The notes under the pieces were generated by a model. It was given only the letters and a program-made list of their open reading frames with translations. It did not search any database and had not been told where the DNA came from. The position numbers and the translations under genes were made by a program. A stretch of DNA of 36,553 nucleotides from the NCBI GenBank assembly GCA_900321605.1, contig ONWR01000023.1, forward strand, positions 1 through 36,553. Direction: 5' to 3'. Below are positions 3,381-36,090 of the stretch, in pieces; the first letter of the stretch is position 1; every line of letters begins with the position of its first letter. The stretch comes from an uncultured Bacteroidales bacterium. Its GTDB lineage: Bacteria; Bacteroidota; Bacteroidia; Bacteroidales; Paludibacteraceae.

Positions 3381-3424
3381 GTTGACTAGAAGACTAGTTG
3401 ACTAGAAGACTAGTGGTCTAGTAG
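3381..3424. repeat. Octad repeat array, CTAGT family, between ATPase gene and nifJ
   Basis: Five consecutive 8-bp units and a partial sixth: GTTGACTA and GAAGACTA alternate twice, then GTGGTCTA and GTAG. The ATPase stop codon (complement of 3418-3420) lies inside it. The reverse complement resembles the array at 17542-17565. Confidence 0.85.
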
Positions 3425-4683
3425 AGGAACCCTAAGAGCCACAACGGTATTTGGTTACCGCGTCCGGTTTCGAGTTCTGCTACCGCTGTGGGACGGATAG
3501 TGTCTCTGCTGGAGGCTTTCTCGCGTACGTCGAAATAGTACTTACCGTCCACCACGAACATCGCACTGCGGTCAGTAGCATTGACCTTATGTGAGCCATG
3601 GATAGCGGTATAGAAATTAGTCTCGTACAGATCCTCCGGGCTCACCTCACGTGTGAAGATCATCTTTGCCACGTTGGTATTATGCATATAGACCCTCGTA
3701 GGCTTCATCGGGAAGTTCTTATTCTCCATATAGAGGAGGTTGATCAGACGCGAGTCCTTGAGATACTTGATATAGTTCATGGTTGTCGCACGGCTGAGAC
3801 CGATCTCCTCGGAAATACTACTTATGTTCAGCGCACACGGTGCATCTCTCATCAGAATATGGAGCAGTTTGCGCAACTTATGCAGGCAAGCCACATCGAT
3901 CTGCTTGATCATCAGTACATCCACCTCCAACTGGCTGTTCATCACCTTCAGCAGCGCTGCCTCGAACGACTTGGACTCCAGATAAGAAGGATAGTAGCCG
4001 TGATCGAGATAGGCTTTGAAATATTTCAAAGGCTGCACGCGCTCGCATATCTCGCGGGAGATAGAGGAGTGATGCTGGATAATATCCTCGAGGGTATAAG
4101 AATGGAGCCGCAGACCTGTTTGCAAGTTCAGATACTCACGGAAGGAGAACCCGCGCAAGTTATAGGTCTTAACGATATCCTTGAGGTCGTTATTCTCTTC
4201 ATCAATCGGCATGACCGGTGTCGCACAGAAGATGATATGCAGGTCTTTGTACTTGGCGTAACAGCGTTTGAGCTCCTTTGACCAAGTGGGATATTTGAAA
4301 ATCTGGTCGATAAACAGATACTTGCCGCCAGCTTTCACGAACTTACCTGCAAACTCAACCAGCGAATGATCTGTGAAGAAGAAATCGTTCAAGTTGACAT
4401 ATAAGCAAGGACGAACTTCTTCCAGTTCTTTACGCCTTTTCTTAGACGTAAACTCCTCCTGCTGCCTTGCTTCTTTCCATTGCTGCTCAATCTCCTTGGC
4501 ACGGGAGAGCAGGAAGTCGGTCTTACCTACTCCACGACCACCTTTGATAGCAATGAGGCGATCCTCCCAATTGATTTCGTCCATTAGCAACCGTCTGATA
4601 GGCATCGAGCTATGCTCCACCAGGAAATCGTGAATCCTAAAAAATGCGTCTAACATGGTCATATTTTGCTGTTTTTTATCCAT
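3418..4683 (-). CDS. AAA-family ATPase with DUF4143-like C-terminal part, altered Walker B
   Basis: A 421-residue cytoplasmic protein of the AAA_14/DUF4143-like type, a family commonly present in many copies in Bacteroidales and of uncertain role. The P-loop GGRGVGKT is near residue 50. The Walker B region reads YLFIDQIFKYPTW, with Gln where these proteins normally have Glu, and the usual sensor stretch TGSS is replaced by CATP. A winged-helix-like segment (ISEEIGLSRATTMNYIKYL) follows, and the C-terminus IPLWLLGFLY is as I remember for the family. A promoter lies just upstream (4711-4742). A start at the internal Met (residue 8) is possible. Whether it hydrolyses ATP is doubtful on sequence grounds; this is inference from motif loss. 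Confidence 0.85.
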   Translation of the reverse strand: MDKKQQNMTMLDAFFRIHDFLVEHSSMPIRRLLMDEINWEDRLIAIKGGRGVGKTDFLLSRAKEIEQQWKEARQQEEFTSKKRRKELEEVRPCLYVNLNDFFFTDHSLVEFAGKFVKAGGKYLFIDQIFKYPTWSKELKRCYAKYKDLHIIFCATPVMPIDEENNDLKDIVKTYNLRGFSFREYLNLQTGLRLHSYTLEDIIQHHSSISREICERVQPLKYFKAYLDHGYYPSYLESKSFEAALLKVMNSQLEVDVLMIKQIDVACLHKLRKLLHILMRDAPCALNISSISEEIGLSRATTMNYIKYLKDSRLINLLYMENKNFPMKPTRVYMHNTNVAKMIFTREVSPEDLYETNFYTAIHGSHKVNATDRSAMFVVDGKYYFDVREKASSRDTIRPTAVAELETGRGNQIPLWLLGFLY

Positions 4684-4710
4684 TTAACAACTTTTTTCTC
4701 AAATTCGCTG

Positions 4711-4742
4711 CAAAATTACAAAAAAAAATCCATATTTGCAAT
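4711..4742 (-). promoter_or_regulatory. Promoter for the ATPase gene
   Basis: On the minus strand an ATTG element (4742-4739) is followed after 20 nt by TAATTTTG (4718-4711), matching the Bacteroidetes TAnnTTTG -7 box. The first element is one base off TTTG. Confidence 0.6.
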
Positions 4743-4763
4743 ACTTACCTTACATTTTTTAAT

Positions 4764-4795
4764 AAAAAAATGAGGATTCACGGTTGTGAACCCTC
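4764..4795 (-). terminator. Terminator after the ferredoxin gene
   Basis: An 11-bp stem with one mismatch (TGAGG and TTCAC on one arm) and a 4-nt loop lies at 4771-4795. On the minus strand it is followed by seven T residues. It sits between the ferredoxin stop and the ATPase promoter. Confidence 0.75.
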
Positions 4796-4829
4796 AAAAA
4801 TACACATTTTTTGTTAAAAAAAACACTTT

Positions 4830-4994
4830 TTAGAGGCTAATAGCTCCACTTGGGCAAACATCTGCGCAAGTTCCACACTCAGTGCAAACGTCCGGATCAA
4901 TGGAATAGTGTTCGCCTTCCGAGATAGCGCCCATCGGGCACTCATCGATACACGTACCGCAAGCGATACAATCAGTTGAAATTTTGTAAGCCAT
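4830..4994 (-). CDS. 2[4Fe-4S] ferredoxin, 54 residues
   Basis: A small bacterial-type ferredoxin, an electron carrier in the cytoplasm and a likely acceptor for the pyruvate oxidoreductase encoded nearby. The whole protein is two copies of the cluster-binding motif: CIACGTCIDECP at residues 9-20 and CTECGTCADVCP at residues 37-48, each followed by a G-A-I turn. The start MAYKISTDC is the only reasonable ATG and the length is typical of clostridial-type 2[4Fe-4S] ferredoxins. It has its own promoter (5143-5174), a roughly 140-nt leader filled with octad repeats, and its own terminator (4764-4795), so it looks like a single-gene transcript. Confidence 0.96.
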   Translation of the reverse strand: MAYKISTDCIACGTCIDECPMGAISEGEHYSIDPDVCTECGTCADVCPSGAISL

Positions 4995-5012
4995 AAGATA
5001 ATTTATTTATTT

Positions 5013-5124
5013 GTTTAAGCGTTTATCAGTTTATGCGTTTATCAGTTTATGGGTTGTTGAATAAGTTAACTTGTTTAAACTATTTAAACCACGTATAAAC
5101 TCATCAACCTATCAACTCATCAAC
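5013..5124. repeat. Octad repeats in inverted arrangement, ferredoxin leader
   Basis: On the left are five to six 8-bp units of the type GTTTATCA/GTTTATGC (5013-5060). On the right are four units of the type TCATCAAC/CTATCAAC (5093-5124), which resemble the left units in reverse complement. The centre contains the palindromes AAGTTAACTT and GTTTAAAC. The block lies in the untranslated leader of the ferredoxin transcript and could fold back. Confidence 0.75.
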
Positions 5125-5142
5125 AATATTTCAATTCGGTTG

Positions 5143-5174
5143 CAAAATTACTACTTTTTTTTGAGACTACCAAA
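5143..5174 (-). promoter_or_regulatory. Promoter for the ferredoxin gene
   Basis: Minus-strand TTTG (5174-5171), a 20-nt spacer and TAATTTTG (5150-5143) fit the Bacteroidetes consensus exactly. The spacer carries TCAAAA at the same place as the extended promoters elsewhere in the window. Confidence 0.8.
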
Positions 5175-5190
5175 TTTTAGGGAAAGATTT

Positions 5191-5823
5191 TTACTTTTTT
5201 TTCTTATTTACGGTTGCCAGAACTGCTGCGAGTTTGGCAGCCGGCCCGGTTAATCCGCTGTCGGTCAGTCCTTTCCGTTTGGCAAAGGTAGTCCAGTCTT
5301 TGGCACCTCCTTCGGAGACAGGCAAGCCTAATTGCAGGAAATGGCAGTACGCGATACCGAGGGCATCGGTGGCATCGAGTTTCTTAGGCATCTCATCGTC
5401 CGGAATATGCAGAAAACGCTGTAACATGCCTGCCACCTGCTGTTTGGTAGAGTGTCCGTTGCCGGTGATTGCCATCTTGATCTTCATCGGCGAATACTCG
5501 TAGATCGGCACGTCTTTGGAGAGCGCTGCAGCGATCGCTACGCCTTGCGCATGAACGATCTTGATCATCGTCTGGGGGTTCTTGTCCACGAACTGCGTCT
5601 CGATAGCCAAACAGGTAGGATGATACTTATCGATGATCTCCTGCAAGAAGAAGAACTCCTTTTGGAGACGCGGATATTGCCCTTCCAATTTATGGACATC
5701 ATAGGCGCCAAACTCAAGGATCTCGACCTTCTGCCCGACGGTCTTGAGCAAAGCGTAACCCATGAACAACGTTCCCGGGTCTACTCCTAAGATGATATGT
5801 TCATTGCGGACGGAGTCCTGCAT
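5191..5823 (-). CDS. ruvC: Crossover junction endodeoxyribonuclease RuvC
   Basis: RuvC cuts Holliday junctions together with RuvAB during homologous recombination. The 210-residue protein shows the RNase H-like fold signature with the four acidic residues in the right places: D15 in ILGVDPGT, E75 in LAIETQF, and D150 and D153 in KLDATDALGIAYCH. The DNA-binding stretch AITGNGHSTKQQV is also present. It is about 20-30 residues longer than the usual RuvC because of a C-terminal tail that ends in a lysine run encoded by an A-rich stretch. It follows the 30-residue membrane peptide gene by 28 nt and probably shares its transcript. Identity is secure. Confidence 0.96.
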   Translation of the reverse strand: MQDSVRNEHIILGVDPGTLFMGYALLKTVGQKVEILEFGAYDVHKLEGQYPRLQKEFFFLQEIIDKYHPTCLAIETQFVDKNPQTMIKIVHAQGVAIAAALSKDVPIYEYSPMKIKMAITGNGHSTKQQVAGMLQRFLHIPDDEMPKKLDATDALGIAYCHFLQLGLPVSEGGAKDWTTFAKRKGLTDSGLTGPAAKLAAVLATVNKKKK

Positions 5824-5851
5824 TCACGTTAAAATGTTTTTTTACAAAACG

Positions 5852-5944
5852 TTAAATTGTTAAAATTATTTTAGCTACGTTCAAGGCAGCTCCTACTGCC
5901 AAGATGACCAAACCGATGATCAATAGTATAGATGATTTTTTCAT
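5852..5944 (-). CDS. 30-residue membrane peptide
   Basis: A short open frame encodes MKKSSILLIIGLVILAVGAA followed by a ten-residue tail, that is, two lysines and a single hydrophobic helix spanning most of the peptide. I do not recognise the family. It sits between the divIC-like gene and ruvC on the same strand, and its start lies at the end of an octad array (5942-5970) that offers two further ATGs, each running into a stop within a few codons. The composition is that of a small inner-membrane protein. Expression is not proven; the start and membrane helix are what can be seen. Confidence 0.55.
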   Translation of the reverse strand: MKKSSILLIIGLVILAVGAALNVAKIILTI

Positions 5945-5970
5945 TTTCTCATTTTCTCATTTTCACATTT
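5942..5970. repeat. Octad array at the divIC-like gene/small peptide junction
   Basis: Three 8-bp units of CATTTTCT type plus a partial one. On the minus strand each unit carries an ATG. The array covers the divIC-like stop codon and the start codon of the small peptide. Confidence 0.8.
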
Positions 5971-6268
5971 ATTCCTCCACGAGGAAGATATCCTCGTTAG
6001 GCGTGTGCATATAATAATGTTCGCGCGCGTACTGCTCCAAGCTGTCAGGATTCTGCAGCAGTAACATTTCCTGCTGCGCTTTCTCTGCTCCTTGGCGATA
6101 CATATCCCGTTGTTCCTCCAAATGGACAATCTCACGCCAACGATGCCACGAACGCAGCAGACTTTGGTCGCCTACAAAAAGAAACACCACCAGAAAAGCC
6201 AGACAGGTGACCACGTATTTGCCCCATTTACGCACTTTAATATGTGTCCAAAACTCAGAAAAAGACAT
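5969..6268 (-). CDS. DivIC/FtsB-type septum formation initiator protein
   Basis: A 99-residue single-pass membrane protein of the FtsB/DivIC family, part of the divisome, where it works with FtsL- and FtsQ-type partners. From the start MSFSEFWTHIK the order is a short cytoplasmic segment, a membrane helix at about residues 18-34 (YVVTCLAFLVVFLFVG), a coiled coil at about 43-71, and the typical NPDSLEQYAREHYYM segment. An ATG 66 nt further upstream at 6334 is open but lies next to the -33 region, upstream of the expected transcription start, so 6268 is preferred. It has a clear promoter (6312-6342) that faces the promoter of the nuclease gene. The annotation rests on topology and the conserved C-terminal motif. 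Confidence 0.85.
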   Translation of the reverse strand: MSFSEFWTHIKVRKWGKYVVTCLAFLVVFLFVGDQSLLRSWHRWREIVHLEEQRDMYRQGAEKAQQEMLLLQNPDSLEQYAREHYYMHTPNEDIFLVEE

Positions 6269-6311
6269 GAGATTGACGACTCGATAATTAATGATTTGAC
6301 GATTTTTGGTG

Positions 6312-6342
6312 CAAAGATACACTTTTTTTTGCATATATCAAA
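6312..6342 (-). promoter_or_regulatory. Promoter for the divIC-like gene
   Basis: Minus-strand TTTG (6342-6339), a 19-nt spacer and TATCTTTG (6319-6312). It overlaps the oppositely directed promoter at 6328-6359, so the -33 element of each lies in the spacer of the other. Confidence 0.8.
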
Positions 6343-6359
6343 ATTTTTTTGTACTTTTG
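6328..6359 (+). promoter_or_regulatory. Promoter for the secreted EEP nuclease gene
   Basis: TTTG (6328-6331), a 20-nt spacer and TACTTTTG (6352-6359). It carries the extended form TTTGCATATATCAAAA found, with small changes, in three other promoters of the window. Confidence 0.82.
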
Positions 6360-6413: not shown

Positions 6414-10095
<3,682 letters not shown>

Positions 10096-10099
10096 ATTT

Positions 10100-10667: not shown

Positions 10668-11561
10668 ATGAACGAACTTAAAGGACTTGGCACAGCGTTG
10701 ATTACGCCGTTTGACGCAAACGGCAAGGTGGATTACGAGGCACTCAAACGGCTGTTAGAGACACAGCTGAAAGGTTTTGTGGATTACCTCGTGGTACTCG
10801 GTACTACCGGCGAAGCAGCTACGATGACGGAAGACGAGAAACACGAAGTACGCACATTCATTCGCGAATATGTGCATGGTCGTTTGCCTTTGGTTTTAGG
10901 TGTCGGAGGTAATAACACCGCTGCGGTTTGTGAGAGTTTGCGAACGATAGATCTATCCGGTTTTGCTGCTATTCTTTCCGTTTGTCCGTACTACAATAAG
11001 CCTAATCAAGAGGGATTGTACCAACATTTCTGCAAAGTAGCGGAAGCAAGTCCTATTCCTGTTATATTATATAACGTACCCGGGCGCACGGGTGTGAACT
11101 TGCTGCCGGAAACAGTTATGCGGATCTATGAAGCTCATCCGGATAAGATCGTGGGCATCAAAGAGGCGTCGGGCAATATCGCTCAAATCAAAGATTTGAT
11201 CGCTCTTGCCAATTCAAAATTAAAAATTAAAAATTACGAATTACCATTCCTTGTTATTTCAGGCGATGATGGTATTGCGTGTGAGATCATGGAAGCCGGA
11301 GGAGCAGGATTGATAAGCGTGGCAAGCAATGCGTTTGCGGAAGACTTCTGGCACATCGTGCATGATAAGGATCGTGCATTGCAGGCGAAGTACGAGGAGA
11401 TGGTCAGACTGCTGTTTGCGGAAGGTAATCCGGTGGGCATCAAAGCCGTTTTGGCGCAGAAAGGCATCATTCAGAACTACTTACGATTACCGCTTGTACC
11501 CGCAAGCGAGGAACTGAAAGAGAGGATTAGTGGGTTAGTGGATGAGTGGATGAGGGGATAA
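10668..11561 (+). CDS. dapA: 4-hydroxy-tetrahydrodipicolinate synthase DapA
   Basis: DapA condenses pyruvate with aspartate semialdehyde in the lysine and diaminopimelate pathway, in the cytoplasm. The 297-residue TIM-barrel protein has GTTGEAATM (residues 46-54), the catalytic Tyr in ILYNVPGRTG (Y135) and the Schiff-base lysine in VGIKEASGN (K165). Residues about 182-193 (NSKLKIKNYELP) are encoded by five exact 7-bp units and look inserted before the FLVISGDDG strand. The last dozen residues (ISGLVDEWMRG) are encoded by an octad array. A strong repeated SD precedes the start, and a bidirectional terminator follows the stop. All active-site residues are present, so the enzyme is probably functional. 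Confidence 0.96.
   Translation: MNELKGLGTALITPFDANGKVDYEALKRLLETQLKGFVDYLVVLGTTGEAATMTEDEKHEVRTFIREYVHGRLPLVLGVGGNNTAAVCESLRTIDLSGFAAILSVCPYYNKPNQEGLYQHFCKVAEASPIPVILYNVPGRTGVNLLPETVMRIYEAHPDKIVGIKEASGNIAQIKDLIALANSKLKIKNYELPFLVISGDDGIACEIMEAGGAGLISVASNAFAEDFWHIVHDKDRALQAKYEEMVRLLFAEGNPVGIKAVLAQKGIIQNYLRLPLVPASEELKERISGLVDEWMRG
11211..11245. repeat. In-frame AATTAAA-family heptad array inside dapA
   Basis: Five 7-bp units in exact register: AATTCAA, AATTAAA twice, AATTACG, AATTACC. They encode the extra loop at residues 182-193. Confidence 0.88.
11521..11560. repeat. Octad array forming the 3' end of dapA
   Basis: Five 8-bp units, including AGTGGATG and AGTGGATG in tandem. They encode the C-terminal residues and almost reach the stop codon. 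Nearly the same 18-20 nt recur at 29213-29232. Confidence 0.8.
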
Positions 11562-16145: not shown

Positions 16146-16173
16146 AGATTTCAGATTTGAAATTTGAAATTTG
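16146..16173. repeat. AGATTT(C/G)-family heptad array before the MFS gene
   Basis: Four 7-bp units: AGATTTC, AGATTTG, AAATTTG, AAATTTG. The final TTG is the apparent start codon of the MFS gene. Related arrays lie at 18287-18314 and, in reverse complement, 34998-35032. Confidence 0.85.
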
Positions 16174-17547
16174 AAAACGAATCAATCTATATCACCATGG
16201 GTATGGGTACCAACCCTATACTTTACAGAAGGTATCCCCTATTTCTTAGTAAACAGCATCTCTGTGATGCTGTTTGCTAAAATGGGAGTGCCAAACGGGC
16301 AGTTGGCGTTCTTCACGACATTGCTCTATTTTCCTTGGTTTTTGAAAGGTCTTTGGGGACCTTTCGTGGATATTTTCCGCACAAAAAGATGGTGGATCTT
16401 GTCGATGCAAGGTCTGCTGACCGTTTTGTGCATCTTACTGACCGTCACACTACCCTCTCCGGAAGCAGAACAGATTGCCGCCAAGACCACTTCGGTAGGC
16501 GTTTTCAGGTGGAGTCTGATCTTCTTCATCATCGCTGCTTTTGCTTCTGCGACGCATGACATCGCCGCAGACGGCTATTACATGCTTGCTCATGACGAGC
16601 GTAGCCAAGCAGCATTTGTGGGTATTCGGTCGACGTTCTACCGCATCGCTTCCGTGTTCTCGCAAGGCGTATTGGTGTATATCGCCGGATACATTGAGAA
16701 CAAGACCGGCAATATTCCGCTGTCATGGCAAGTAACCTTAGGCGCTACCAGCGTGATCTTGCTGTTGATTACTATTTACCATTGTTTTGCATTGCCGAAA
16801 GTGGAAACAGAGGCGAAAGGCGAAAGGTTAGAGGCAAAAGGTGTTTGGATAGAGTTAGGCAAAGCGTTCGGAACATTTTTCACTAAGCCCGGTGTGGGTT
16901 TGGCGATTGCTTTCATGCTGCTTTACCGTTTGAGCGAAGGTTTCTTGGTGAAGTTGTGTCAGCCGTTCCTGCTTGACCACGCGGTGGAAGAACTGCGACA
17001 AGGAGAGACGACTTTCTCCCTCTTCGGAATGGATCTCTTCAGCGTTCATCACACTATGCACGTGGGAGGTGGATTAGCGTTAGGAACTGATATAGTGGGA
17101 ATTATGTACGGCACATTGGGCGTAATAGGTCTGCTCATCGGTGGTATTTTAGGCGGTATTTATATTTCCAGACGAGGTCTGAAACGCTCTATTTGGCTGA
17201 TGGCAGCAGCTCTGACGCTGCCCAGTTTCGTATATTGCTACCTGAGTATGGCGCAACCGGAGTCGCTCTGGATTATCGGAACGGCTGTCAGCTTTGAGCA
17301 GTTCGGTTACGGCTTTGGTTTTACGGCATATATGCTGTATATGATGTATTTTGCGGAAGGCGAGTACAAAACCGCACACTACGCTATTTGCACCGCTTTC
17401 ATGGCATTGAGTATGATGATACCGGGATTTGTAGCCGGTTTCATTCAAGAATCAGTGGGTTACTCGGCGTTCTTCTGGATCGCTAACGCGTTCAGTATCA
17501 CCACGTTCGCGGTAACGTACTTTGTATATAAAAAATTAGAGAACTAG
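16171..17547 (+). CDS. AmpG-like MFS transporter
   Basis: A 458-residue inner-membrane transporter of the major facilitator superfamily that looks most like AmpG-type muropeptide permeases. SPWVWVPTLYFTEGIPYF at the N-terminus, WFLKGLWGPFVDIFRTKRWW after the second helix, and about twelve hydrophobic segments support this. The start is TTG at 16171: the frame is closed by TGA at 16165-16167, the ATGs at 16197-16203 are in another frame, and homologues I know begin just before the ISPW motif. The TTG is the end of a heptad array. Residues about 214-224 (EAKGERLEAKG), in the loop between helices 6 and 7, come from another array. Substrate is inferred, not proven. Confidence 0.85.
   Translation: MKTNQSISPWVWVPTLYFTEGIPYFLVNSISVMLFAKMGVPNGQLAFFTTLLYFPWFLKGLWGPFVDIFRTKRWWILSMQGLLTVLCILLTVTLPSPEAEQIAAKTTSVGVFRWSLIFFIIAAFASATHDIAADGYYMLAHDERSQAAFVGIRSTFYRIASVFSQGVLVYIAGYIENKTGNIPLSWQVTLGATSVILLLITIYHCFALPKVETEAKGERLEAKGVWIELGKAFGTFFTKPGVGLAIAFMLLYRLSEGFLVKLCQPFLLDHAVEELRQGETTFSLFGMDLFSVHHTMHVGGGLALGTDIVGIMYGTLGVIGLLIGGILGGIYISRRGLKRSIWLMAAALTLPSFVYCYLSMAQPESLWIIGTAVSFEQFGYGFGFTAYMLYMMYFAEGEYKTAHYAICTAFMALSMMIPGFVAGFIQESVGYSAFFWIANAFSITTFAVTYFVYKKLEN
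16811..16841. repeat. In-frame AGGCGAA heptad array in the MFS gene
   Basis: Units AGGCGAA, AGGCGAA, AGGTTAG, AGGCAAA and a partial AGG. They encode EAKGERLEAKG in the predicted central cytoplasmic loop. Confidence 0.75.
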
Positions 17548-17588: not shown

Positions 17589-18290
17589 ATGACGAAACGA
17601 ATTATTCCGGACACGATCACCAGTTGTAACCTGCTTTGTGGGTGTATAGCCGTTTTTCTGGCTACGCAAGGCGCTTTTATGTGGGCATTTGTGTTTATCT
17701 TAGCGGGCGCATTCTTCGATTTCTTCGATGGTCTGAGCGCACGTGCGTTGAACGCCCCGAGCCCGATAGGCGTAGAGTTGGATTCGCTGGCAGATAATAT
17801 CACGTTCGGTTTGGCTCCTTCGATGCTTTTGTTCTGCTATCTGAGACCTATACTCGGTTGGTGGGCAGGTCTGGCGCTGATCATGGCGGCTTTCTCAGCT
17901 CTCCGTCTGGCGAAATTCAATGTCGATGAGCGCCAACACGAGTCGTTTATCGGTTTGGCAACACCGGCAAACGCTATTTTCTGGGGCGGTTTATGCAGTA
18001 TGCCTATCTCGATCATTGCGTACGACTGGATTGCGTGGACGTTGATAGGTCTGTCGTTTGTCAGCTGCTGGCTGCTGAACGCCGAGATTCCGTTCTTCAG
18101 CTTTAAGTCGTTCAAGAAAGAGAAAATGATTATTATCTGTTTCCTCATCGGCTGCCTTATTCTCATCGGTTTCTGCGTTGCTAAAGCGATTACTACCAAA
18201 CATATTGAGTTCGCTCTCTTCAGCGGAACAGCTTGCATTCTTTGGTACGTGCTGCTGAATCTGCTGTTAGCGGTAGCAAAAAGAAATTGA
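17589..18290 (+). CDS. pssA: CDP-diacylglycerol--serine O-phosphatidyltransferase
   Basis: This integral membrane enzyme makes phosphatidylserine, the precursor of phosphatidylethanolamine, from CDP-diacylglycerol and serine. The 233-residue protein carries the complete CDP-alcohol phosphotransferase motif: D47-G48, A51-R52, G61, D65 and D69 in FDGLSARALN...GVELDSLAD. About six to seven hydrophobic segments fit the family. The N-terminus (MTKRIIPDTITSCNLLCG) is typical of Bacteroidetes PssA. It lies 41 nt downstream of the MFS gene across an octad array, which contains a TAAATTTG that matches a -7 box but has no -33 partner. No psd gene is in the window. Confidence 0.95.
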   Translation: MTKRIIPDTITSCNLLCGCIAVFLATQGAFMWAFVFILAGAFFDFFDGLSARALNAPSPIGVELDSLADNITFGLAPSMLLFCYLRPILGWWAGLALIMAAFSALRLAKFNVDERQHESFIGLATPANAIFWGGLCSMPISIIAYDWIAWTLIGLSFVSCWLLNAEIPFFSFKSFKKEKMIIICFLIGCLILIGFCVAKAITTKHIEFALFSGTACILWYVLLNLLLAVAKRN

Positions 18291-18314
18291 GATTTGAGAT
18301 TTGAGATTTGAAAA
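18287..18314. repeat. AGATTTG-family heptad array after pssA
   Basis: Four 7-bp units, TTGAGAT three times then TTGAAAA. The pssA stop TGA (18288-18290) is inside. It ends 9 nt before the next start. Confidence 0.88.
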
Positions 18315-29048: not shown

Positions 29049-29277
29049 AGAAGGCACTACGGCCTTCTCTCCGCAGACCGGTCTGGGTTCTCCGCCGCTT
29101 CGCTCTGTCGATTATTGCTCATCTGCGTTATGCTACATTCCATAATCGTCCTCGACGCTTATGGGTAGCATATACGCATATTTCACAATTTTCGAATCCG
29201 AATGTCCACTATAGTGGATGAGTGGATGAGAGGGTTAAGGGATGAGAGAAATAAATATCAATAAAAAGGGTGATTTA
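29049..29277. other. Non-coding stretch between tRNA-Val and cstA
   Basis: No convincing gene is visible. It holds a second hairpin (AGAAGGC/GCCTTCT, 29049-29068), a short palindrome CAGACCGGTCTG, a perfect 14-bp palindrome TCCACTATAGTGGA (29205-29218), and an octad array at 29215-29246. Confidence 0.6.
29215..29246. repeat. Octad array (TGGATGAG family) upstream of cstA
   Basis: TGGATGAG twice in tandem, then AGGGTTAA and GGGATGAG. The first part is almost identical to the dapA 3' end array (11529-11556), although the two sites are 18 kb apart. Confidence 0.82.
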
Positions 29278-29333: not shown

Positions 29334-30836
29334 ATGGTCACTTTTATTATCGCTTTGATTCTGCTGGTAGTCGGGTTCTTTACTTACGGCGTATTGGTGG
29401 AGAAGATTTTTGGAGTAGAGCCGGATCGTCAGACTCCGGCGTTGAGCAAGACAGATGGCGTGGATTACGTGCCGATGGCTCCTTGGCGAATCTTCCTTGT
29501 TCAGTTTTTGAATATCGCCGGACTTGGCCCTATCTTCGGTGCAATTATGGGTATTTTCTATGGCCCGGCAGCATTCTTTTGGATCGTTTTCGGTACGATT
29601 TTCGCCGGTGGTGTACACGATTACATGTCCGGTATGCTCTCTATTCGTATGGGAGGAGAATCGCTGCCTGAGATAGTAGGAAGCCAATTAGGCAAGAGTA
29701 CCAAAATCTTCCTGCGCGTGCTCTCGTTGGTCTTGCTGATCTTGCTGACCACCACTTTCCTTAGCGGTCCTGCTACCCTGCTCCAAGGACTTGCTCCGTT
29801 AGCTACCTTCAACTATGGTATTTCGTCTATGCCTATAGCTTGGGTATTGATTATCTTCGGCTATTATGCGTTGGCAACCGTACTGCCGGTAGATAAACTC
29901 ATCGGTCGTTTCTACCCTATTTTCGGTGGCATACTGTTGTTCATGGGGCTTGGTATCATGTTCGTTATGCTCTGGAGACATAGCGCCGAAATGCCGGAGG
30001 TCTTTGATGGTCTGCACAACAGACATACCAACGGTCTGCCGCTCTTCCCGATGATGTTTGTAAGTATCGCTTGCGGCGCCATCTCCGGTTTCCACGGCAC
30101 GCAAAGTCCTATCATGGCGCGTTGCGTGACCAACGAGCGTCAAGGACGTTGGATCTTCTACGGTGCCATGGTGGCAGAAGGTATTCTCGCGCTCATATGG
30201 GCAGCCGCAGCAGGTACGTTCTTCGCCGATCCGGAGAAAGGTTTGTACGGTATTGATGGTTTGCAGGCTTTTGCCGCTGCACACCCGGGAGAGAACATAG
30301 CCGCACTCGTCGTTGACCGCGTTAGCCGCAGCTGGTTAGGTGCCATAGGCGGTATATTGGCAATCATCGGCGTCATAGCTGCTCCTATCACCAGCGGCGA
30401 CACGGCGCTTCGTTCTGCACGTCTCATCGTAGCGGACTACCTGGGTATGGACCAGAAGCCGTCGCGCAAGCGATTGCTGATTGCATTGCCGCTTTTCTTC
30501 TGCGTCTTCGGAATGATTTTTGTGGATTTCAACGTGGTATGGCGCTATTTCGCATGGACCAACCAGACGCTGGCGGTCTTCACGCTCTGGACGGGCACCG
30601 TGTGGCTCTACCGGCATGAAGCGAAGATCCATGACAACCCCTATCGTTTCGGATACCTGATAGCGCTCATTCCTGCGCTGTTCATGACGATGGTATGCAG
30701 CAGTTATATTCTCATTGCCCCGGAGGGCTTCCATTTTGCATGGCATTGGGTCTGCTATCTCTTAGCCGGTATCGTTACACTCGGCTGCTTGGTCGGCTTC
30801 CGCGTATGGGCAAGAAAGGTGAAAAGTGAAAGGTGA
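29334..30836 (+). CDS. cstA: Carbon starvation protein CstA family transporter
   Basis: A 500-residue inner-membrane protein of the CstA family, which imports peptides or pyruvate in characterised members. Family stretches include LNIAGLGPIFGAIMGI, FAGGVHDYMSGMLSIRMGG, CGAISGFHGTQSPIMAR and IAAPITSGDTALRSARL. It is shorter than E. coli CstA (about 700 residues) and fits the shorter form known from Bacteroides. It has a strong promoter of its own. The last codons and stop (RKVKSER) are encoded by a heptad array (30814-30848). The direction of transport and substrate are not visible in sequence. Confidence 0.94.
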   Translation: MVTFIIALILLVVGFFTYGVLVEKIFGVEPDRQTPALSKTDGVDYVPMAPWRIFLVQFLNIAGLGPIFGAIMGIFYGPAAFFWIVFGTIFAGGVHDYMSGMLSIRMGGESLPEIVGSQLGKSTKIFLRVLSLVLLILLTTTFLSGPATLLQGLAPLATFNYGISSMPIAWVLIIFGYYALATVLPVDKLIGRFYPIFGGILLFMGLGIMFVMLWRHSAEMPEVFDGLHNRHTNGLPLFPMMFVSIACGAISGFHGTQSPIMARCVTNERQGRWIFYGAMVAEGILALIWAAAAGTFFADPEKGLYGIDGLQAFAAAHPGENIAALVVDRVSRSWLGAIGGILAIIGVIAAPITSGDTALRSARLIVADYLGMDQKPSRKRLLIALPLFFCVFGMIFVDFNVVWRYFAWTNQTLAVFTLWTGTVWLYRHEAKIHDNPYRFGYLIALIPALFMTMVCSSYILIAPEGFHFAWHWVCYLLAGIVTLGCLVGFRVWARKVKSER

Positions 30837-30848
30837 AGGGTGAAAATA
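30814..30848. repeat. GAAAGGT heptad array at the cstA 3' end
   Basis: Five 7-bp units: GAAAGGT, GAAAAGT, GAAAGGT, GAAGGGT, GAAAATA. The cstA stop (30834-30836) is inside and the next start follows 9 nt after the array. Confidence 0.88.
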
Positions 30849-30857
30849 TAAGCTATT

Positions 30858-32183
30858 ATGAAACATTTTAACAGACTTTTTATTTTTCTATTGTTAGCAG
30901 GGACTTGCGCTACCCGAGCAGAGAACATAACGGTTACGACTACCATAACCGTTAACAACTTCCATGCTCAGAATAATCTTGTGCAACTCAATCTCCCCGG
31001 ATCGACTCAAATGGATAGCGGTTGGTTTGTATCTCAGAGTGACACCACTCGCAAAGCCCTCGTTTTTCATGCGAAGAACAAAGATTATATCAATATCTCC
31101 AAATTAGAAAGAGGCTATCACCTGTTCTTTGCACAAGTCGGAGATACGTGTTTTTTCCAACGTCTCTACAAACGCGACACCGCCATAATTAAGGAGTTGG
31201 ACATCGTTACCGAGGACGCTATCGTCGTGACTCCGCACAAGTTGCTGTTTGTCATCCGTGAAGCCGGAAAAGCCGAAGCTCCGCATGTGGACAGCCTTTG
31301 GATTGTAAATAAGGATTATCATTGTAAGGACGCGTCCATGTGTATGCGCACACACGCACAATCCGGCGACACGATTGATCTATATCCGCTCTTAGGGCAA
31401 TCGGAGAATGAGTTTCAATGTGTGGCGTGGATCAACGGCGTTGACTACTGGAGCAACAGTTTTTATTATGAGGGAGAATGCGATGCGTATAAGAATATTA
31501 TTGTTCAGTTAACCAACATCAATCCGCATCACCTCATTCTGAATATTACGGACGGCGGAGAGCCTGTGGAAGCCGACAGCTTATGGATTACGTCCACGCA
31601 CGGCAGTGCCACTTTGGAGACCATTGTCTCTCCAACTGACGGCGACACGATTGACCTTTCTCCGATGGTAAGCATGCCGGAAAGGAACTATTTAGCCTGG
31701 CTGCGTTTCGGTGATTGTGTGAAGGTGTATAGCTTCCGTTTCAACGGGAAGGAGTTCGATTATTGTCTGGAAGCCGGTATATGGTGGGTACATATAGAGA
31801 CCGACTACAATGCGCATGTTATGCAATACTACCTCCGCGATTACAACAATCAGGACATTTACGATGTTCCCGTTGACAGCGTTTGGGTAATGACTAATAA
31901 TCTCCATGAAGCTTCTGAATATGTATGCTCGCTCCATGCACTGCCCGGAGAGGACATCCATATGCAGCAGTTCGAGAATGGTTTTTATGAGTTATTCGTG
32001 CAAATAGGAGAGTGCATCCTTTCTATGCCTTTTCAAGCCTCCTCAAACAGGGAGAACGGAATCGAAGATGTTCAGATCAAAGACATTGCCCCTTCAGCCA
32101 CCAAAATTCTCCGTAACGGCAGAATCTATATTCTCCGCTACGACAAAACATATACCATCACAGGGCAAGAAACACTCCTATGA
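30858..32183 (+). CDS. Secreted protein of unknown function with repeated beta-rich segments and sorting-type tail
   Basis: A 441-residue exported protein I do not recognise. The signal peptide is [21 protein letters not shown]. The body has about three similar segments, each with a DSLWI/DSVWV strand, a GDTIDL-like turn ([21 protein letters not shown]) and an aromatic strand ending in a short FYE/FRF motif, suggesting a repeated beta-sandwich. The end [20 protein letters not shown] matches the tail on the endonuclease I protein, so surface export is likely. Its stop overlaps the engB start (ATGA). Cysteines are scattered through the protein. Confidence 0.75.
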
Positions 32184-32839
32184 TAAAATCTGCACAATAT
32201 ATTATCTCCTCTCCGGATGTGAAAGACTGTCCGCAAAGTCAACTGCCGGAATATGCGTTTATCGGACGCAGTAATGTGGGTAAGTCCAGTCTTATCAACA
32301 TGATTTGTCATGACCCAAAGTTGGCAAAGACGAGCCAGAAACCCGGTAAGACGCTGCTGATCAACCATTTTTTAGTCGTTAGTCGTTCGTCGTTCGTCGT
32401 TCGACCCGATTCCAATGACCAACGACCAATGACCAACGACCAGACATGGCATCTCGTGGATCTGCCCGGTTACGGATATGCGCAAGCAGGACAGAAACAA
32501 CGCGAGGCTCTCAAACGGATGATTGAGCGGTATTGTCTTCTGCGCGAACAGCTGGTTTGTCTGTTTGTGCTCATCGACTGCCGTCACGAACCGCAGAAAA
32601 TAGACTTGGAGTTCATCAACTGGTTAGGCGAGAACGGCGTGCCTTTTGCCATCGTCTTCACCAAAGGGGACAAACTCGGCAGAATGCGTCTTAAAGAGAA
32701 TGTAGAAGCCTATCAAACACGCCTTTTAGAAGACTGGGAAGAACTGCCGCCGGTCTTCGTCACCTCGTCCGAGACAGGGCTTGGCGGAGAAGAACTGACC
32801 GCGTACATAGAAGAACTGAATGAAAGCGTGCAATCTTAA
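32180..32839 (+). CDS. engB: Ribosome biogenesis GTPase EngB (YsxC/YihA)
   Basis: An essential GTPase in many bacteria that helps assemble the large ribosomal subunit. The 219-residue protein has G1 GRSNVGKS (29-36), the switch I stretch [12 protein letters not shown]3 DLPGYGYA (94-101) and G4 TKGD. Residues ~65-88 (LVVSRSSF and on to PMTNDQ) are extra relative to the usual short turn between the switch I strand and DLPG, and are encoded by an inverted pair of heptad arrays (32374-32441). The start overlaps the previous stop by four bases (ATGA). GTP-binding motifs are intact, so the insert is probably tolerated as a surface hairpin. Confidence 0.95.
32374..32441. repeat. Inverted pair of heptad arrays inside engB
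   Basis: Left arm: AGTCGTT twice and CGTCGTT twice (32374-32401). Right arm: AATGACC and AACGACC alternating twice (32414-32441). The arms are largely reverse complementary and separated by 12 nt, so the stretch can form a long imperfect hairpin in DNA or mRNA. Confidence 0.9.
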
Positions 32840-32917: not shown

Positions 32918-35440
32918 ATGAGTAAAATCTTAAAAATAGTAAACTTTTGTCTGCTGTTCGCATGCAGCCTCTCTTGCTACGCACGTACAGCACGTGTGTA
33001 CGGATATGTGGTGGATCAGGACAATATAGGTATCGAGCTGGTCAACATAGCGGCATGGAGTAATGTACAAAGGGACGATGTACAAAGTACAAAGGAATTA
33101 CTGGGCGGCACGTCAACCAACAAAAACGGTTTCTACGAACTCGTTTTAGACGAAGCGGACACCATCACACTCATCTACTCGATGATAGGCTATACCAGTG
33201 TGCAGCAACGAATCATCGACTTCCGCGAAGTGCTGAACGTCAACGTACAGATGCTCACGGACGAGCAGGTTCTCAGCGAGATAGAGATACGCGGAATCAA
33301 GCATACCAAAGGAACTATGGATCGCATTGATGCCTCCACGACACGCGTCATGCCGGATGCTACCGGAGGATCAATAGAGAGCCTGCTTATCACTTTCGCC
33401 GGTGTAAGCCAAACCAACGAACTCAGTAGCCAGTACAACGTACGCGGCGGTTCGTTTGACGAGAACTCGGTCTATGTCAACGGCATTGAGGTGCACCGTC
33501 CTCTGCTCATCCGTAGCGGACAGCAGGAAGGACTTAGCTTCGTGAACCCCGAGATGGTGGAGAACGTCCATTTCTCGGCAGGAGGTTTCGGGGCACAGTA
33601 CGGCGATAAGATGGCTTCTGTGCTGGACATCAGCTATAAAAAACCGCAGGCTTTTGAAGCCAGCCTGAGTGCCAGCCTCCTTGGCGCAAACGTCTATGTC
33701 GGTCATGGAGACAGCACGTACTCGATGATGCACGGCTTCCGATACAAGACCAGCAAATACATGCTCGGAGGACTTTCTACTGCCGGCAATTATCAGCCCA
33801 CTTATATCGACTACCAGACGTACATCACTTGGAAAATTAGAAATTCAACATTAAAAATTAACACGCCATGGGAGATGTCATTCCTTGGTAACATCAGCCA
33901 GAACGACTACCGCTTCACGCCGGACAGCCTCTCGGAATCGTTCGGAGGACAGGACGCCAAGAACCTCACTATCTACTATGACGGAAAAGAGAAAGACAAG
34001 TTCCTGACAGCTTTCGCAGCCCTGAGCGCGAAAGGCAAAGTAAGCAACGAAGTGGAGATAGGTTTTGACCTCTCGGGTTTCTATACCAACGAGCGTGAGA
34101 ACTTCGACATCACCGGTGAATACGTGCTTTCCAATGCCCCTGCAGGTGGCAGCTCGGCAGGTAACGTTCACTCCGAACAGATCAACCCTTCGGAAGGGCA
34201 GACAGCCGTGCTCGGAACCGGTATCTTCCACCAACACGCGCGTAACACCCTTCAGGCAAGCGTCATCACCCTCGCTCATAACGGCAACTGGAAACATGGC
34301 TCCAATACCCTCACATGGGGCGTGAGCGGACAGTTCGAACTCATCAAAGACCGGATCAGCGAATGGGAATGGCGAGACAGTGCCGGTTACTCCCTGCCTG
34401 ACAACAGCAAGTCAATGGAGCTGTGGTACGCCCTGCGAGGCAACAGTGACATGCACTCCGCACGACTGCAAGCCTATGTGCAGAACGAGCATAAATGGAA
34501 CACCACCGGCGGTCAGTGGATCTTAACCGTCGGCGGACGACTCCAATGGTGGAGTTGGAACAACGAAGTGCTGCCTTCTCCCCGTGCGTCCTTGGAATGG
34601 ATACCGGGTTGGAAACGCGATTTCTGTTTCCGCGTGGCAACAGGTCTCTACTACCAAGCGCCGTTCTACAAAGAGCTGCGAGACACCATCACAGACGACC
34701 TTGGGGTGACCCGCATCCTGCTCAACAAAAACCTCAAGGCGCAACGTTCCGTGCATGTGGTTCTTGGCGGAGACTACTATTTCCGCGCATGGGGACGACC
34801 CTTCAAACTCACTGCCGAAGCCTACTATAAACACATCGACCGAATGGAGAGCTATACCGTTGATAATGTGCGCGTTCGTTACTCCGGTCAGAACGACTCC
34901 AAGGGCTATGCTGCTGGACTGGATCTCAAGCTCTACGGCGAACTGGTTCCGGGAGCAGACTCGTGGATCTCTTTCTCCACCATGACCGCACGGCAAAGAA
35001 ATCTGAACTCTGAAATCTCCAATCTGAAATCTGATTGGATACCCTCTCCGACAGAGCAACGGTGGAACTTCTCCATGCTCTTCCAAGACTACATCCCTAA
35101 GTTACCGCAACTCAAGTTCCACCTCAAGATGCAGTTTGCCGAAGGACAGCCGTTCTACGTTCCGCGCAACCAGCAAGCTTGGGGACGAATGCCGGTCTAT
35201 AAACGTATCGACTTAGGAGCCACGTATGTCTTCAACGCCCAGACAGCGAAGTTCATGCGCAAGCCCTCTGCCAAACATGTCAAACAGTGGGCATTGCAGT
35301 TCGAGGTCTTCAACCTCGTCGGTTGGAAGAACGTCAACTCCTATTTCTGGGTTGCCGATGCCTATGGTCAGCAATGGGCATCCCCGAACTACCTAACCGG
35401 CAGAAGATATAACTTCAAGGTCACGGTGGACTTACGTTAA
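32918..35440 (+). CDS. TonB-dependent outer membrane receptor with carboxypeptidase-regulatory-like N-terminal domain
   Basis: An 840-residue outer membrane transporter of the TonB-dependent type. After a signal peptide (MSKILKIVNFCLLFACSLSC) come a carboxypeptidase-regulatory-like domain (~27-110), a plug domain (~120-240; SSQYNVRGGSFDENSVYVNG, then GGFGAQYGDKMASVLDI), and a beta-barrel ending KVTVDLR. No SusD partner follows, so it is probably not a glycan SusC; uptake of a metal chelate or peptide is possible. Three parts of the protein are encoded by short repeat arrays: residues ~48-60 (SNVQRDDVQSTKE), ~306-315 (KIRNSTLKIN) and ~694-706 (RNLNSEISNLKSD). The frame is open throughout. A strong terminator follows. 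Confidence 0.9.
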   Translation: MSKILKIVNFCLLFACSLSCYARTARVYGYVVDQDNIGIELVNIAAWSNVQRDDVQSTKELLGGTSTNKNGFYELVLDEADTITLIYSMIGYTSVQQRIIDFREVLNVNVQMLTDEQVLSEIEIRGIKHTKGTMDRIDASTTRVMPDATGGSIESLLITFAGVSQTNELSSQYNVRGGSFDENSVYVNGIEVHRPLLIRSGQQEGLSFVNPEMVENVHFSAGGFGAQYGDKMASVLDISYKKPQAFEASLSASLLGANVYVGHGDSTYSMMHGFRYKTSKYMLGGLSTAGNYQPTYIDYQTYITWKIRNSTLKINTPWEMSFLGNISQNDYRFTPDSLSESFGGQDAKNLTIYYDGKEKDKFLTAFAALSAKGKVSNEVEIGFDLSGFYTNERENFDITGEYVLSNAPAGGSSAGNVHSEQINPSEGQTAVLGTGIFHQHARNTLQASVITLAHNGNWKHGSNTLTWGVSGQFELIKDRISEWEWRDSAGYSLPDNSKSMELWYALRGNSDMHSARLQAYVQNEHKWNTTGGQWILTVGGRLQWWSWNNEVLPSPRASLEWIPGWKRDFCFRVATGLYYQAPFYKELRDTITDDLGVTRILLNKNLKAQRSVHVVLGGDYYFRAWGRPFKLTAEAYYKHIDRMESYTVDNVRVRYSGQNDSKGYAAGLDLKLYGELVPGADSWISFSTMTARQRNLNSEISNLKSDWIPSPTEQRWNFSMLFQDYIPKLPQLKFHLKMQFAEGQPFYVPRNQQAWGRMPVYKRIDLGATYVFNAQTAKFMRKPSAKHVKQWALQFEVFNLVGWKNVNSYFWVADAYGQQWASPNYLTGRRYNFKVTVDLR
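33062..33095. repeat. In-frame GTACAAA-family array in the TonB receptor gene (1)
   Basis: Units AATGTAC, AAAGGGAC, GATGTAC, AAAGTAC and a partial AAAGG: same unit order and same reading frame as in ligA (8219-8252). Confidence 0.85.
33833..33860. repeat. In-frame AATTAAA-family array in the TonB receptor gene (2)
   Basis: Units AAAATTA, GAAATTC, AACATTA, AAAATTA. Related to the dapA array at 11211. Confidence 0.72.
34998..35032. repeat. In-frame GAAATCT array in the TonB receptor gene (3)
   Basis: Five 7-bp units: GAAATCT, GAACTCT, GAAATCT, CCAATCT, GAAATCT. The reverse complement is AGATTTC, the unit family seen at 16146 and 18287. Confidence 0.85.
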
Positions 35441-35445
35441 AAATC

Positions 35446-35475
35446 ACCTTTGCGCCTGCAAAGGTTTTTTTTATA
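35446..35475 (+). terminator. Terminator after the TonB receptor gene
   Basis: An 8-bp perfect stem ACCTTTGC/GCAAAGGT with a 4-nt loop (35446-35465), followed by a run of T. Confidence 0.92.
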
Positions 35476-35548
35476 TATATTCAACCTCAAAATACCGGAA
35501 AAAATGCCCATAAGCGTTAAAAAAACGGTAAATAAATTTAAACATAAC

Positions 35549-35580
35549 GAAAAGCGCCCGAGATTATCGGACGCTTTTCT
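35549..35580. terminator. Second hairpin between converging genes
   Basis: Stem GAAAAGCG and CCGA with TCGG and CGCTTTTC, broken by one mismatch, loop GATTA. T-rich on the plus side. Probably the terminator of the minus-strand gene at 35608, and possibly bidirectional. Confidence 0.65.
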
Positions 35581-35607
35581 TTTGCCCTGTTTAGAGGGTT
35601 TCGGCTT

Positions 35608-35997
35608 TTAGCCGTTGTGCTCGGCATCGTACGCCTCTTTCTCCAGCTTCCAGAGGTAGGAGCGCATGGTCTTTTTGCCGCCCGGCTGATCCTTCTGAGC
35701 TGCGAAAGCTGCTTGGTCGGCAGAGATCTTCATGAGGTCTTTCGAACGAGCAGCCACGGAAGCTGCGATAGACGAGAAACGGTTGCGGATACGAGTCTCC
35801 TCGGTGGTTACCGGAGTGGTACGATTGTACGCATCTGCGGGACGGATGAAGAGACGAGTACAATTGGGGTTCGTGGTCGGAGCCACACGGTGCGTACCGA
35901 TGAGGTAGGAACCACAAGAGTGACCATCTTTTACTTTCGGCTTAGCCAGAGAACCGGAGACATGGTCAATACCGGTTGCATACACTACTTTTCCCAT
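35608..35997 (-). CDS. Small conserved Bacteroidales protein of unknown function
   Basis: A 129-residue basic protein starting MGKVVYATGIDHVSGSLAKP, with GHSCGSYLIGTHRVAPTTNP, many Arg/Lys residues and the C-terminal QPGGKKTMRSYLWKLEKEAY. I recall similar hypothetical proteins in Bacteroidales, often next to cell-wall hydrolase-like genes, but cannot assign a function. There is no signal peptide or membrane helix. The start codon lies within an exact 51-bp tandem duplication (35956-36057), so a second copy of the first 14 codons lies just upstream and ends at a stop. The neighbours on the same strand are a small lipoprotein and a DUF5675-like gene. Confidence 0.72.
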   Translation of the reverse strand: MGKVVYATGIDHVSGSLAKPKVKDGHSCGSYLIGTHRVAPTTNPNCTRLFIRPADAYNRTTPVTTEETRIRNRFSSIAASVAARSKDLMKISADQAAFAAQKDQPGGKKTMRSYLWKLEKEAYDAEHNG

Positions 35998-36057
35998 AGC
36001 GATTTAGGAGACATGGTCAATACCGGTTGCATACACTACTTTTCCCATAGCGATTTA
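35956..36057. repeat. Exact 51-bp tandem duplication over a gene start
   Basis: 35956-36006 and 36007-36057 are identical. Each copy holds, on the minus strand, an ATG and 14 codons (MGKVVYATGIDHVS). In the upstream copy these run into TAA at 36006-36004; in the downstream copy they continue into the full gene. Confidence 0.97.
36004..36048 (-). other. 14-codon upstream ORF created by the duplication
   Basis: It encodes MGKVVYATGIDHVS and stops 6 nt before the real ATG at 35997. Both starts have the same upstream sequence, so both may be translated. It may be a neutral by-product of the duplication. Confidence 0.6.
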
Positions 36058-36062
36058 GATTT

Positions 36063-36090
36063 AATGAATAATTAATAATTAATAATGAAT
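36063..36090. repeat. AATTAAT heptad array upstream of the 35997 start
   Basis: Four 7-bp units: AATGAAT, AATTAAT, AATTAAT, AATGAAT. Confidence 0.75.

Follow-up and report, generated by a model that had tools for sequence, protein, structure and literature searches.

Heptamer tandem repeats with species-specific units at gene junctions and inside housekeeping genes of a Paludibacteraceae genus

A stretch of 36,553 nucleotides from an uncultured Bacteroidales bacterium of the Paludibacteraceae (contig ONWR01000023.1 of assembly GCA_900321605.1; the whole stretch is called the window here) carries short tandem arrays of 7- or 8-bp units at gene junctions and inside genes. The question raised by this locus is whether each array has expanded where it stands or whether units are carried from site to site, as the original prediction, made from the letters of the window, had proposed. 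The arrays are real and occur throughout the genus; in general kind they are heptamer tandem repeats, which are already known. They occur far above chance, and their units differ between species and at orthologous sites. The arrays of 7 bp and, less often, 8 bp are probably copied within genomes to many sites, together with composites of 31-33 bp; copying is demonstrated for one composite, the GTACAAA element, and supported for the rest. Unusual features are the many families, the strong species differences, the rapid turnover and the repeated in-frame entry into essential genes, and turnover inside essential genes seems new.

The window belongs to a metagenome-assembled genome (MAG) of 2.3 Mb that is 94.9% complete (G000, the ‘own’ genome). 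L-numbers denote loci and G-numbers genomes; the window is L082 and its nearest relative by ligA is L002. Arrays in the window are located by self-comparison at periods 2 to 30, with score cut-offs of 14 and 12 and 20 block shuffles as the control, and by Tandem Repeats Finder (TRF) at score 30. The own-genome sample comprises 61 stretches (991,693 bp, window included) and is compared with three shuffles. A second sample comprises 80 ligA loci and 30 shorter loci (1.435 Mb), with some contigs counted twice (e.g. L050 and L089, judged by coordinates). The order-level control comprises 20 stretches from 13 genomes of other Bacteroidales families (251 kb).

The original prediction had proposed a genome-wide count against shuffled sequence, and the outcome is unambiguous: the own-genome sample contains 153 arrays of period 7, 20 of period 14 and 9 of period 21, against shuffle means of 0, 0.33 and 0. 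The totals are 182 arrays of the period-7 class and 34 of the period-8 class. Other periods include 22 arrays of period 8, 22 of period 11, 14 of period 9 and 12 of period 16, with shuffles at about zero. Chance or composition is thereby ruled out as the source of the arrays. In the second sample the peaks are at period 7 (164), period 11 (52) and period 8 (46), and the order-level control has two arrays of period 7 and one each of periods 8 and 16. One 20-kb stretch of G106, from another family, holds seven arrays of period 7, 8 or 14 (two shorter G106 stretches hold none), and dense arrays are therefore not confined to this genus. The 173 arrays of the own genome fall into 52 canonical heptamers, which rules out one shared unit or a single binding site; the commonest are AAAAATT, AACGACT and AACGACC, and the commonest units are not G-rich. 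A 20-base pattern of AACGACY units has 199 overlapping matches in the own genome and, among 148 others from the order, is present in 3; used as a control, the reversed pattern matches 12 of these 148, the reversed unit being itself repeated in some. According to simple longest-ORF (open reading frame) gene calls, 58 of the 182 period-7 arrays lie inside coding sequence, 50 straddle a gene end, 60 are intergenic, 13 are near the 5' end of a coding sequence and 1 is near a 3' end; distance to starts was outside this count.

Copying is clearest in the GTACAAA element. The insert in ligA has the sequence GTACAAAGGAACAATGTACAAGGTACAAAGG, a run of 7- and 8-bp steps, and this same irregular sequence is also present in the TonB receptor gene of the window. 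The features concerned are:

8000..10054, plus strand: ligA, NAD-dependent DNA ligase, host of an insert
8219..8252, plus strand: GTACAAA composite element of about 31-33 bp that interrupts ligA in frame at the VGSDL/KGFE junction
33062..33095, plus strand: the other GTACAAA composite element of the window, in frame in the TonB-dependent receptor gene

With up to three mismatches the own genome contains 47 matches (28 forward and 19 reverse, a few adjacent or overlapping), and the reversed pattern, used as a control, has none there. With at most one mismatch there are 21 matches in the own genome and 0 to 10 in other genomes of the genus, and 24 of the 61 genus genomes, the own counted, have any. 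The flanks of 39 distinct copies (up to four mismatches) contain at most about 0.4 bits per position beyond the last three left bases; an A at position -2, two bases before GTACAAA, is invariant (39/39), and the first right base contains 0.3 bits. Because an irregular layout is repeated and stops abruptly on both sides, the element has ends and has been copied, and copying beyond purely local expansion is well supported for it. In our reading the consensus is free of stop triplets on either strand. Among the 35 copies in open frames of 450 nt or more, 27 use a single frame out of the six, with the peptide VQRDNVQ[C/S/G]TK; the binomial chance of this at 1 in 6 is about 6e-15, which overstates independence because five of these copies share similar flanking peptides near the frame end and may be paralogues. 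Selection for a hydrophilic loop peptide is proposed as the reason for the preferred frame.

The ligA insertion point, the VGSDL/KGFE junction, accepts many other units. The site table has 81 rows (80 loci and the window), with a site called ‘empty’ when VGSD to YPMLSL spans no more than 75 nt, a definition that takes in a few short non-repetitive variants, and with the states of L011, L037 and L064 assigned by hand. By this definition the site is empty or almost empty in 34 of the 81 rows; the other 47 carry in-frame inserts, which represent ten repeat families or other kinds at one codon junction: GGTTACG (10 rows), GTACAAA (9), AGTCGAA (8), GGACAAA (5), a CTCCCC/GGGGAG type (4), AGCC(A/G)TC (3), AGGCGAA (2) and six singletons, two of them non-repetitive. 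The GGTTACG count includes L080, which has variant units and whose genome lacks any GGTTACG match. As a separate observation, palindrome-like CTCCCC/GGGGAG-type elements occupy heptamer landing sites in ligA of L011, L036, L054 and L071 and in the EngB loop of L273, and a related 15-mer occurs 9 times in the own-genome sample.

Insert states are then compared with phylogeny. On the ligA tree they need 38 changes (200 label shuffles: median 45, lowest 40), and the simpler division into empty and filled sites needs 22, inside the shuffled range (lowest 20). A tree of the flanks only, 150 + 210 bp beside the site, again gives 38 changes, where shuffles have a median of 45 and never fall below 39. 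In 27 of the 81 rows the row with the most similar flanks shares the insert state, and states differ despite about 91-92% identical flanks between L018 and L036, between L024 and L058, and between L011 and either L003 or L013. The phylogenetic signal of the insert states is present but weak.

The unit in ligA tends to abound elsewhere in the same genome. The direction agrees in three families, strongly only in GGTTACG, for which nine of ten ligA carriers have 6-128 overlapping genome matches, while 14 of 20 non-carriers have 0 and the highest non-carrier has 13 (p = 7e-5 after three matches per carrier are subtracted). For AGTCGAA p = 0.013 (8 carriers vs 26 others, ligA’s own matches included), and for GGACAAA p = 0.016 (ligA’s own matches removed). 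Whole unit spectra also differ between species. Overlap with the own genome is 0.15 for G022 (30 arrays) and 0.07 for G017 (28 arrays); when whole-contig subsamples of at least 28 or at least 30 arrays of the own genome are compared with the rest of it, the medians are 0.46 and 0.47 and the lowest value is 0.28. G002 (5 arrays, overlap 0.04) and G011 (1 array, 0.00) are too small for a spectrum comparison. Period-7 density per 100 kb is 1.2 in G011 (80 kb only), 2.6 in G002, 17.7 in G022 and 18.2 in the own genome. Density does not simply track ligA identity: G002 is closer to the window than G017, yet has fewer arrays.

Two further genes of the window carry arrays in frame. The MMR_HSR1 GTPase gene at 32180..32839 is engB-like.

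10668..11561, plus strand: dapA-family gene (dihydrodipicolinate synthase, DHDPS; PF00701), host of arrays at 11211 and 11527
11211..11244, plus strand: AATTAAA heptamer array, in frame within the dapA-family gene
11527..11559, plus strand: array of GTGGATGA-type octamers at the 3' end of the dapA-family gene; the L004 version is much shorter
32180..32839, plus strand: EngB/YsxC-like GTPase (MMR_HSR1), host of two arrays
32372..32403, plus strand: TTAGTCG heptamer array in a loop of the EngB-like GTPase (orthologue loops, self-comparison)
32412..32442, plus strand: CCAACGA/CCAATGA heptamer array in the same loop (orthologue loops, self-comparison)

The dapA table covers 14 of 81 scanned loci, namely those whose site fitted one search expression. 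The unit at the 11211 site is of AATTAAA type in the window, L010, L019, L021 and L027, of CAATTCA type in L052 and in L002, the near relative of the window, GAGTCAA in L004 and L013, of TCAGCC (TCAGCCG) type in L044, and of AGTCAAA type in L018, L036, L061 and L074; none of the 14 listed loci has an empty allele. EngB loops were read in 30 of the 55 genomes with a match, 61 having been searched. After LLINHF the loop is very short in four of the 30 loci (L276, L280, L285 and L297) and longer but non-repetitive in several; inserts in the others include TTAGTCG/CCAACGA (window), AGTCGAA, GAGTCAA, a TCAGTATT type and a CTCCCC/GGGAGG-type element. The original prediction had about eight arrays inside otherwise conserved coding sequence keeping the frame. 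This is borne out for ligA and the EngB-like GTPase, whose orthologues include short or empty versions; in dapA it rests on differing arrays, with no empty allele listed.

A broader orthologue comparison covers arrays of periods 7, 8, 11 and their multiples in the ligA loci and the window. Of 310 arrays tried, 202 have an alignable orthologue, and for 61 of these there is a relative, at least 80% identical in each flank, whose version is at least 14 bp shorter; 45 of the 61 are listed individually. Near-identical loci differ in copy number by whole units, and mosaic arrays of two repeat families exist (e.g. L162). The comparison of orthologous loci that the original prediction had proposed thus finds the sites of related species empty or filled with other units, which rules out old conserved sequence. 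An assembly artefact is ruled out as well, the inserts being intact and in frame in MAGs from several projects.

Three side observations concern other units. At L024:5335, compared with L053, a 32-bp insert consists of four octamers of CTAG plus four A/T; CTAG is kept and the spacers differ, so simple slippage does not account for this insert. A 16-bp dispersed family around AGACCGCTTCGCTG, with variants GCGAAGC, GCGTAGC and GTGAAAC, is found at L121:6464, L125:5171, L130:15736, L160:12985 and in the EngB loop of L277; at its candidate stem bases the pair C-G occurs in 43 of 223 cases, but T-A (14) is no more frequent than A-A (14). At gene-start junctions the ATG-containing octamers AAATGATG, AATGGATG and TAAATGAG recur, with several start and stop codons in different frames, at L004:3921, L009:8256 and L014:7619 (ligA 3' end) and at L018:4737 and L022:4080 (start of the dapA-family gene).

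Within the window, the self-comparison at a score of at least 14 finds 8 arrays of periods 7/14/21, 4 of periods 8/16/24 and none of any other period (shuffle means 0.05, 0 and 0.1). At score 12 the numbers are 9, 6 and 4 (shuffles 0, 0 and 0.2). Two of the 15 arrays of these classes, at 23076 (period 21) and 36156 (period 24), resemble ordinary coding or low-complexity repeats, and 11 to 13 are therefore firm. Both GTACAAA sites and the 29213 site fall under the self-comparison cut-off and are supported by TRF and pattern search. TRF reports 23 window rows of period 7 or 8, several of them two-copy and maybe due to chance, so that the ‘about twenty’ arrays first counted hold only loosely and shrink at stricter cut-offs. 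The genes of the window include those for RuvC, the NAD-dependent DNA ligase, the dihydrodipicolinate-synthase family protein, SurA-like and CstA-like proteins, the EngB-like GTPase and the TonB-dependent receptor. The remaining arrays are:

3379..3425, unstranded: octamer array with CTAG core, period 8/16, intergenic (pattern search, TRF, self-comparison)
5006..5055, unstranded: octamer array GTTTATGC/GTTTATCA, period 8/16, intergenic, with 16 bp more in L002 (orthologue alignment, self-comparison)
5935..5970, unstranded: octamer array ATTTTCTC, intergenic (TRF, self-comparison)
10060..10095, unstranded: TAAATGG-type heptamers spanning the ligA stop and the next gene start (weak in TRF)
16146..16176, unstranded: AGATTTC/GAAATTT heptamer array, gene junction (TRF, self-comparison)
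18287..18311, unstranded: TTGAGAT heptamer array, gene junction (TRF, self-comparison)
29213..29230, unstranded: AGTGGATG octamer repeat, intergenic, downstream of tRNA-Val (TRF)
30814..30844, plus strand: GAAAGGT heptamer array, 3' end of the CstA-like gene (TRF, self-comparison)
33833..33861, plus strand: AAAATTA heptamers within the TonB-dependent receptor gene (TRF)
34998..35034, plus strand: GAAATCT heptamer array within the TonB-dependent receptor gene (TRF, self-comparison)
36062..36091, unstranded: TAATGAA heptamer array (TRF, self-comparison)

In other species the junction between the ligA stop and the next start carries octamers or other heptamers. The original prediction had named eleven array positions, all of which contain period-7 or period-8 sequence, and the distant recurrences that it listed are found: GTACAAA at 8222 (ligA) and 33065 (TonB receptor), AATTAAA at 11211 and 33833, AGATTTC/G at 16146, 18287 and, on the other strand, 34998, and AGTGGATG at 11524 and 29213. 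The CTAG-type unit is present at 3379, its second site at 17544 being only weak.

Other repeats were seen alongside the heptamers. Period-11 arrays (e.g. TAATAACTAAC, TTGACCGTCGG and TACGTAGGATA) are far above chance, with 52 in 1.435 Mb (L004:6159, L017:11115, L021:21570, L046:14714 and others). A long (GTAT)n run with a score of 88 at L116:6672 in the own genome is the sole period-4 array of the 992-kb sample. A perfect 51-bp tandem duplication occupies 35956-36058 of the window. A longer dispersed repeat that includes the 15-mers AAAGCAGTACCTTTG and TTGCATATATGCAAA occurs 19 times in the own 992-kb sample and may be a small transposon-like element.

Whole-unit changes in copy number and mosaic arrays, together with the failure to find RVT_1 and Y1_Tnp described below, lead us to propose that copying would proceed by strand slippage combined with template switching, primed by microhomology, while DNA is replicated or repaired; the template would be an array already present elsewhere in the genome. 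Arrays would be both sources and landing pads, and one unit could therefore overwrite another in place. Sites of the ligA type appear to be supplied with units from a genome-wide pool, as the abundance data partly show. Selection would purge harmful insertions, leaving survivors at gene junctions or as stop-free, in-frame, hydrophilic loop inserts such as those of LigA, DapA and EngB. A bolder version, in which each species has its own ‘dialect’ of active heptamers that spreads enzyme-free, overwrites older arrays and continually rewrites the LigA, DapA and EngB loops, is offered tentatively.

The strongest competitor, unlikely though it is, is local polymerase slippage alone, by which 7 bp would be a favoured slippage length and arrays would grow in place from chance seeds. 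Whole-unit differences between near-identical loci and the unit-like seeds in some shorter orthologues are what it expects, a match between 7 nt and the polymerase contact, which Mrazek proposed according to PMC4679880 and PMC4692102, speaks for it, and the weak result of the unit-order test given below agrees with it. The 47 matches of one irregular element strain it, however, and so do the differing unit spectra of species, the tendency of the ligA unit to equal an abundant unit of the genome, and the different units at one ligA codon junction. The claim of the original prediction that the arrays spread rather than expand locally is thus upheld by the GTACAAA element, the spectra and the ligA-unit abundance, and has to be softened insofar as local expansion is real too.

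Somewhat less probable again is a dedicated enzyme, an unrecognised transposase, integrase or polymerase that moves the arrays and the elements of about 33 bp as RAYTs (REP-associated tyrosine transposases) move REPs (repetitive extragenic palindromes). The sharp ends of the GTACAAA element, with the invariant A (39/39) and little flank information beyond, and its lineage-specific match numbers would suit such an enzyme. Profile searches for two candidate families speak against it. Y1_Tnp, the RAYT-type transposase, has no match in G000 or the array-rich G017, a weak one interrupted by an internal stop in G022, and four matches each in the array-bearing G106 and G129 of other families, likewise in some genomes not known to be array-rich; RVT_1, the reverse transcriptase, has no match in G000, G022 or G017 and is present in G015 and G002. 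Neither is therefore required, unless missed in the absent few percent of the MAG, and both are rejected as necessary drivers. No gene that tracks with the arrays was identified in these searches, which were made for RVT_1 and Y1_Tnp and for no other enzymes. In addition, many different families of units show like behaviour, and neither an end nor a hairpin common to them was noticed, though without a systematic test.

It is improbable that the arrays are functional sites, species-specific binding sites for regulation, uptake or nucleoid structure, forming a dialect that co-evolves with a binding protein: differing spectra between species, the reading-frame preference of the GTACAAA element and MacGregor’s proposal of translational control by TAACTGA (PMC4679880) fit this view, but 52 canonical heptamers among 173 arrays of one genome, orthologous sites of relatives with different arrays or none, and the presence of arrays in all gene contexts do not. 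Movement of ligA, dapA and engB alleles between species by homologous recombination, with no within-genome copying, is equally improbable, since the identical insert boundaries in separate clades that favour it (e.g. GGACAAA in L009, L038 and L041) are offset by a local-flank tree that follows the insert state no better (38 changes) and by the whole-genome unit abundance that tends to accompany the ligA allele.

Several observations weigh against within-genome copying as the general explanation. Seven of the 26 genomes that lack AGTCGAA in ligA have 42-160 AGTCGAA matches (including L003, L004, L011 and L013), and in the GGACAAA carrier G219 all three matches fall at ligA by coordinate conversion. 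The p values given above come from Mann-Whitney tests, which ignore kinship and count overlapping matches. The insert states of ligA carry some phylogenetic signal, 38 changes being fewer than in every one of the 200 shuffles, and the recurrence of one insert with identical boundaries in far clades could be allele exchange between species. Several arrays look grown from a local seed, and some shorter orthologues hold one unit-like seed. Regular arrays at different loci have variant-unit order in common barely more than after shuffling (265 vs a shuffle maximum of 254 at k=18, 126 vs 140 at k=21, and 87 vs 91 at k=24). The template-switching step is inferred, and a MAG that is 95% complete and has no match to two enzyme families may still encode another enzyme for the task.

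Copying within genomes, if it is the process at work, has consequences beyond this window. The housekeeping genes of this group of rumen bacteria hold fast-changing inserts, and their tolerance of repeated in-frame insertion bears on the origin of protein loops and linkers. The same sites are filled with different units across many species, so that birth, copying and replacement can be read from alignments; the dominance of heptamers among bacterial tandem repeats is usually ascribed to polymerase slippage. If sequences of about 30 bp are copied and neither a transposase nor a reverse transcriptase can be detected, repeats would have a separate way of spreading, and the dialect reading, if true, would mean molecular drive on repeats among the smallest known to spread.

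Repeats of this kind are not wholly undescribed. The genus Paludibacter belongs to the Bacteroidales. TAACTGA repeats are reported from Beggiatoaceae, from cyanobacteria and from five Bacteroidetes, of which Paludibacter propionicigenes has two sets (MacGregor 2015, PMC4679880), and the original statement that no description was known for Bacteroidales holds only for the in-gene turnover, which seems new. In the open-licence literature, that paper was the only one found on heptanucleotide tandem repeats in Bacteroidetes, none was found on heptamer repeats in Bacteroidales or tandem repeats in Paludibacteraceae, and no description of unit-for-unit replacement at orthologous coding sites was found in the parts of it available. 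The TAACTGA system resembles the present one in being made of heptamer direct repeats scattered over lineages, and some close relatives lack the repeats at the same intergenic place (PMC4679880). It differs in having one unit, mostly just upstream of starts in the best-studied genome, whereas here there are dozens, often in coding sequence; own arrays are not mostly upstream of start codons (13 of 182 near a 5' end), and TAACTGA (canonical AACTGAT) is not among the 52 own-genome units listed, with one array in G017. The GGGNATC heptamers of Xanthomonas and Nostoc also vary in length and sequence between close relatives (Rehm 2015, PMC4692102); as described there, in an intergenic study, they consist of one G-rich, quadruplex-forming unit. 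The commonest units here, by comparison, are not G-rich. The small dispersed repeats that Elhai reportedly described in Nostoc in 2008 are said to be very small mobile repeats, often near heptamer arrays, and to be single sequences of 21-27 bp with predicted secondary structure.

Rickettsia palindromic elements (RPEs) insert in frame into unrelated protein genes with a conserved peptide (PMC10969869, PMC5656822), and in-frame insertion into protein genes is seen here too. RPEs are about 150 bp long and palindromic by name; the inserts here are tandem and about 25-40 bp, with 31-33 bp for the GTACAAA element. Closest in general features are the STRR/LSSR (short tandemly repeated repetitive and long simple sequence repeats) of cyanobacteria. 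Heptamers are the commonest long simple repeats (Mrazek 2007, as cited in PMC4679880 and PMC4692102), and in cyanobacteria as here they dominate in short, dispersed arrays of several families per genome, partly at gene junctions. With 153 period-7 arrays in 992 kb, the own genome has genome-wide tandem heptamers far above chance, as that class does; unlike the cyanobacterial repeats, these have a Bacteroidales host and replace one another at orthologous coding sites.

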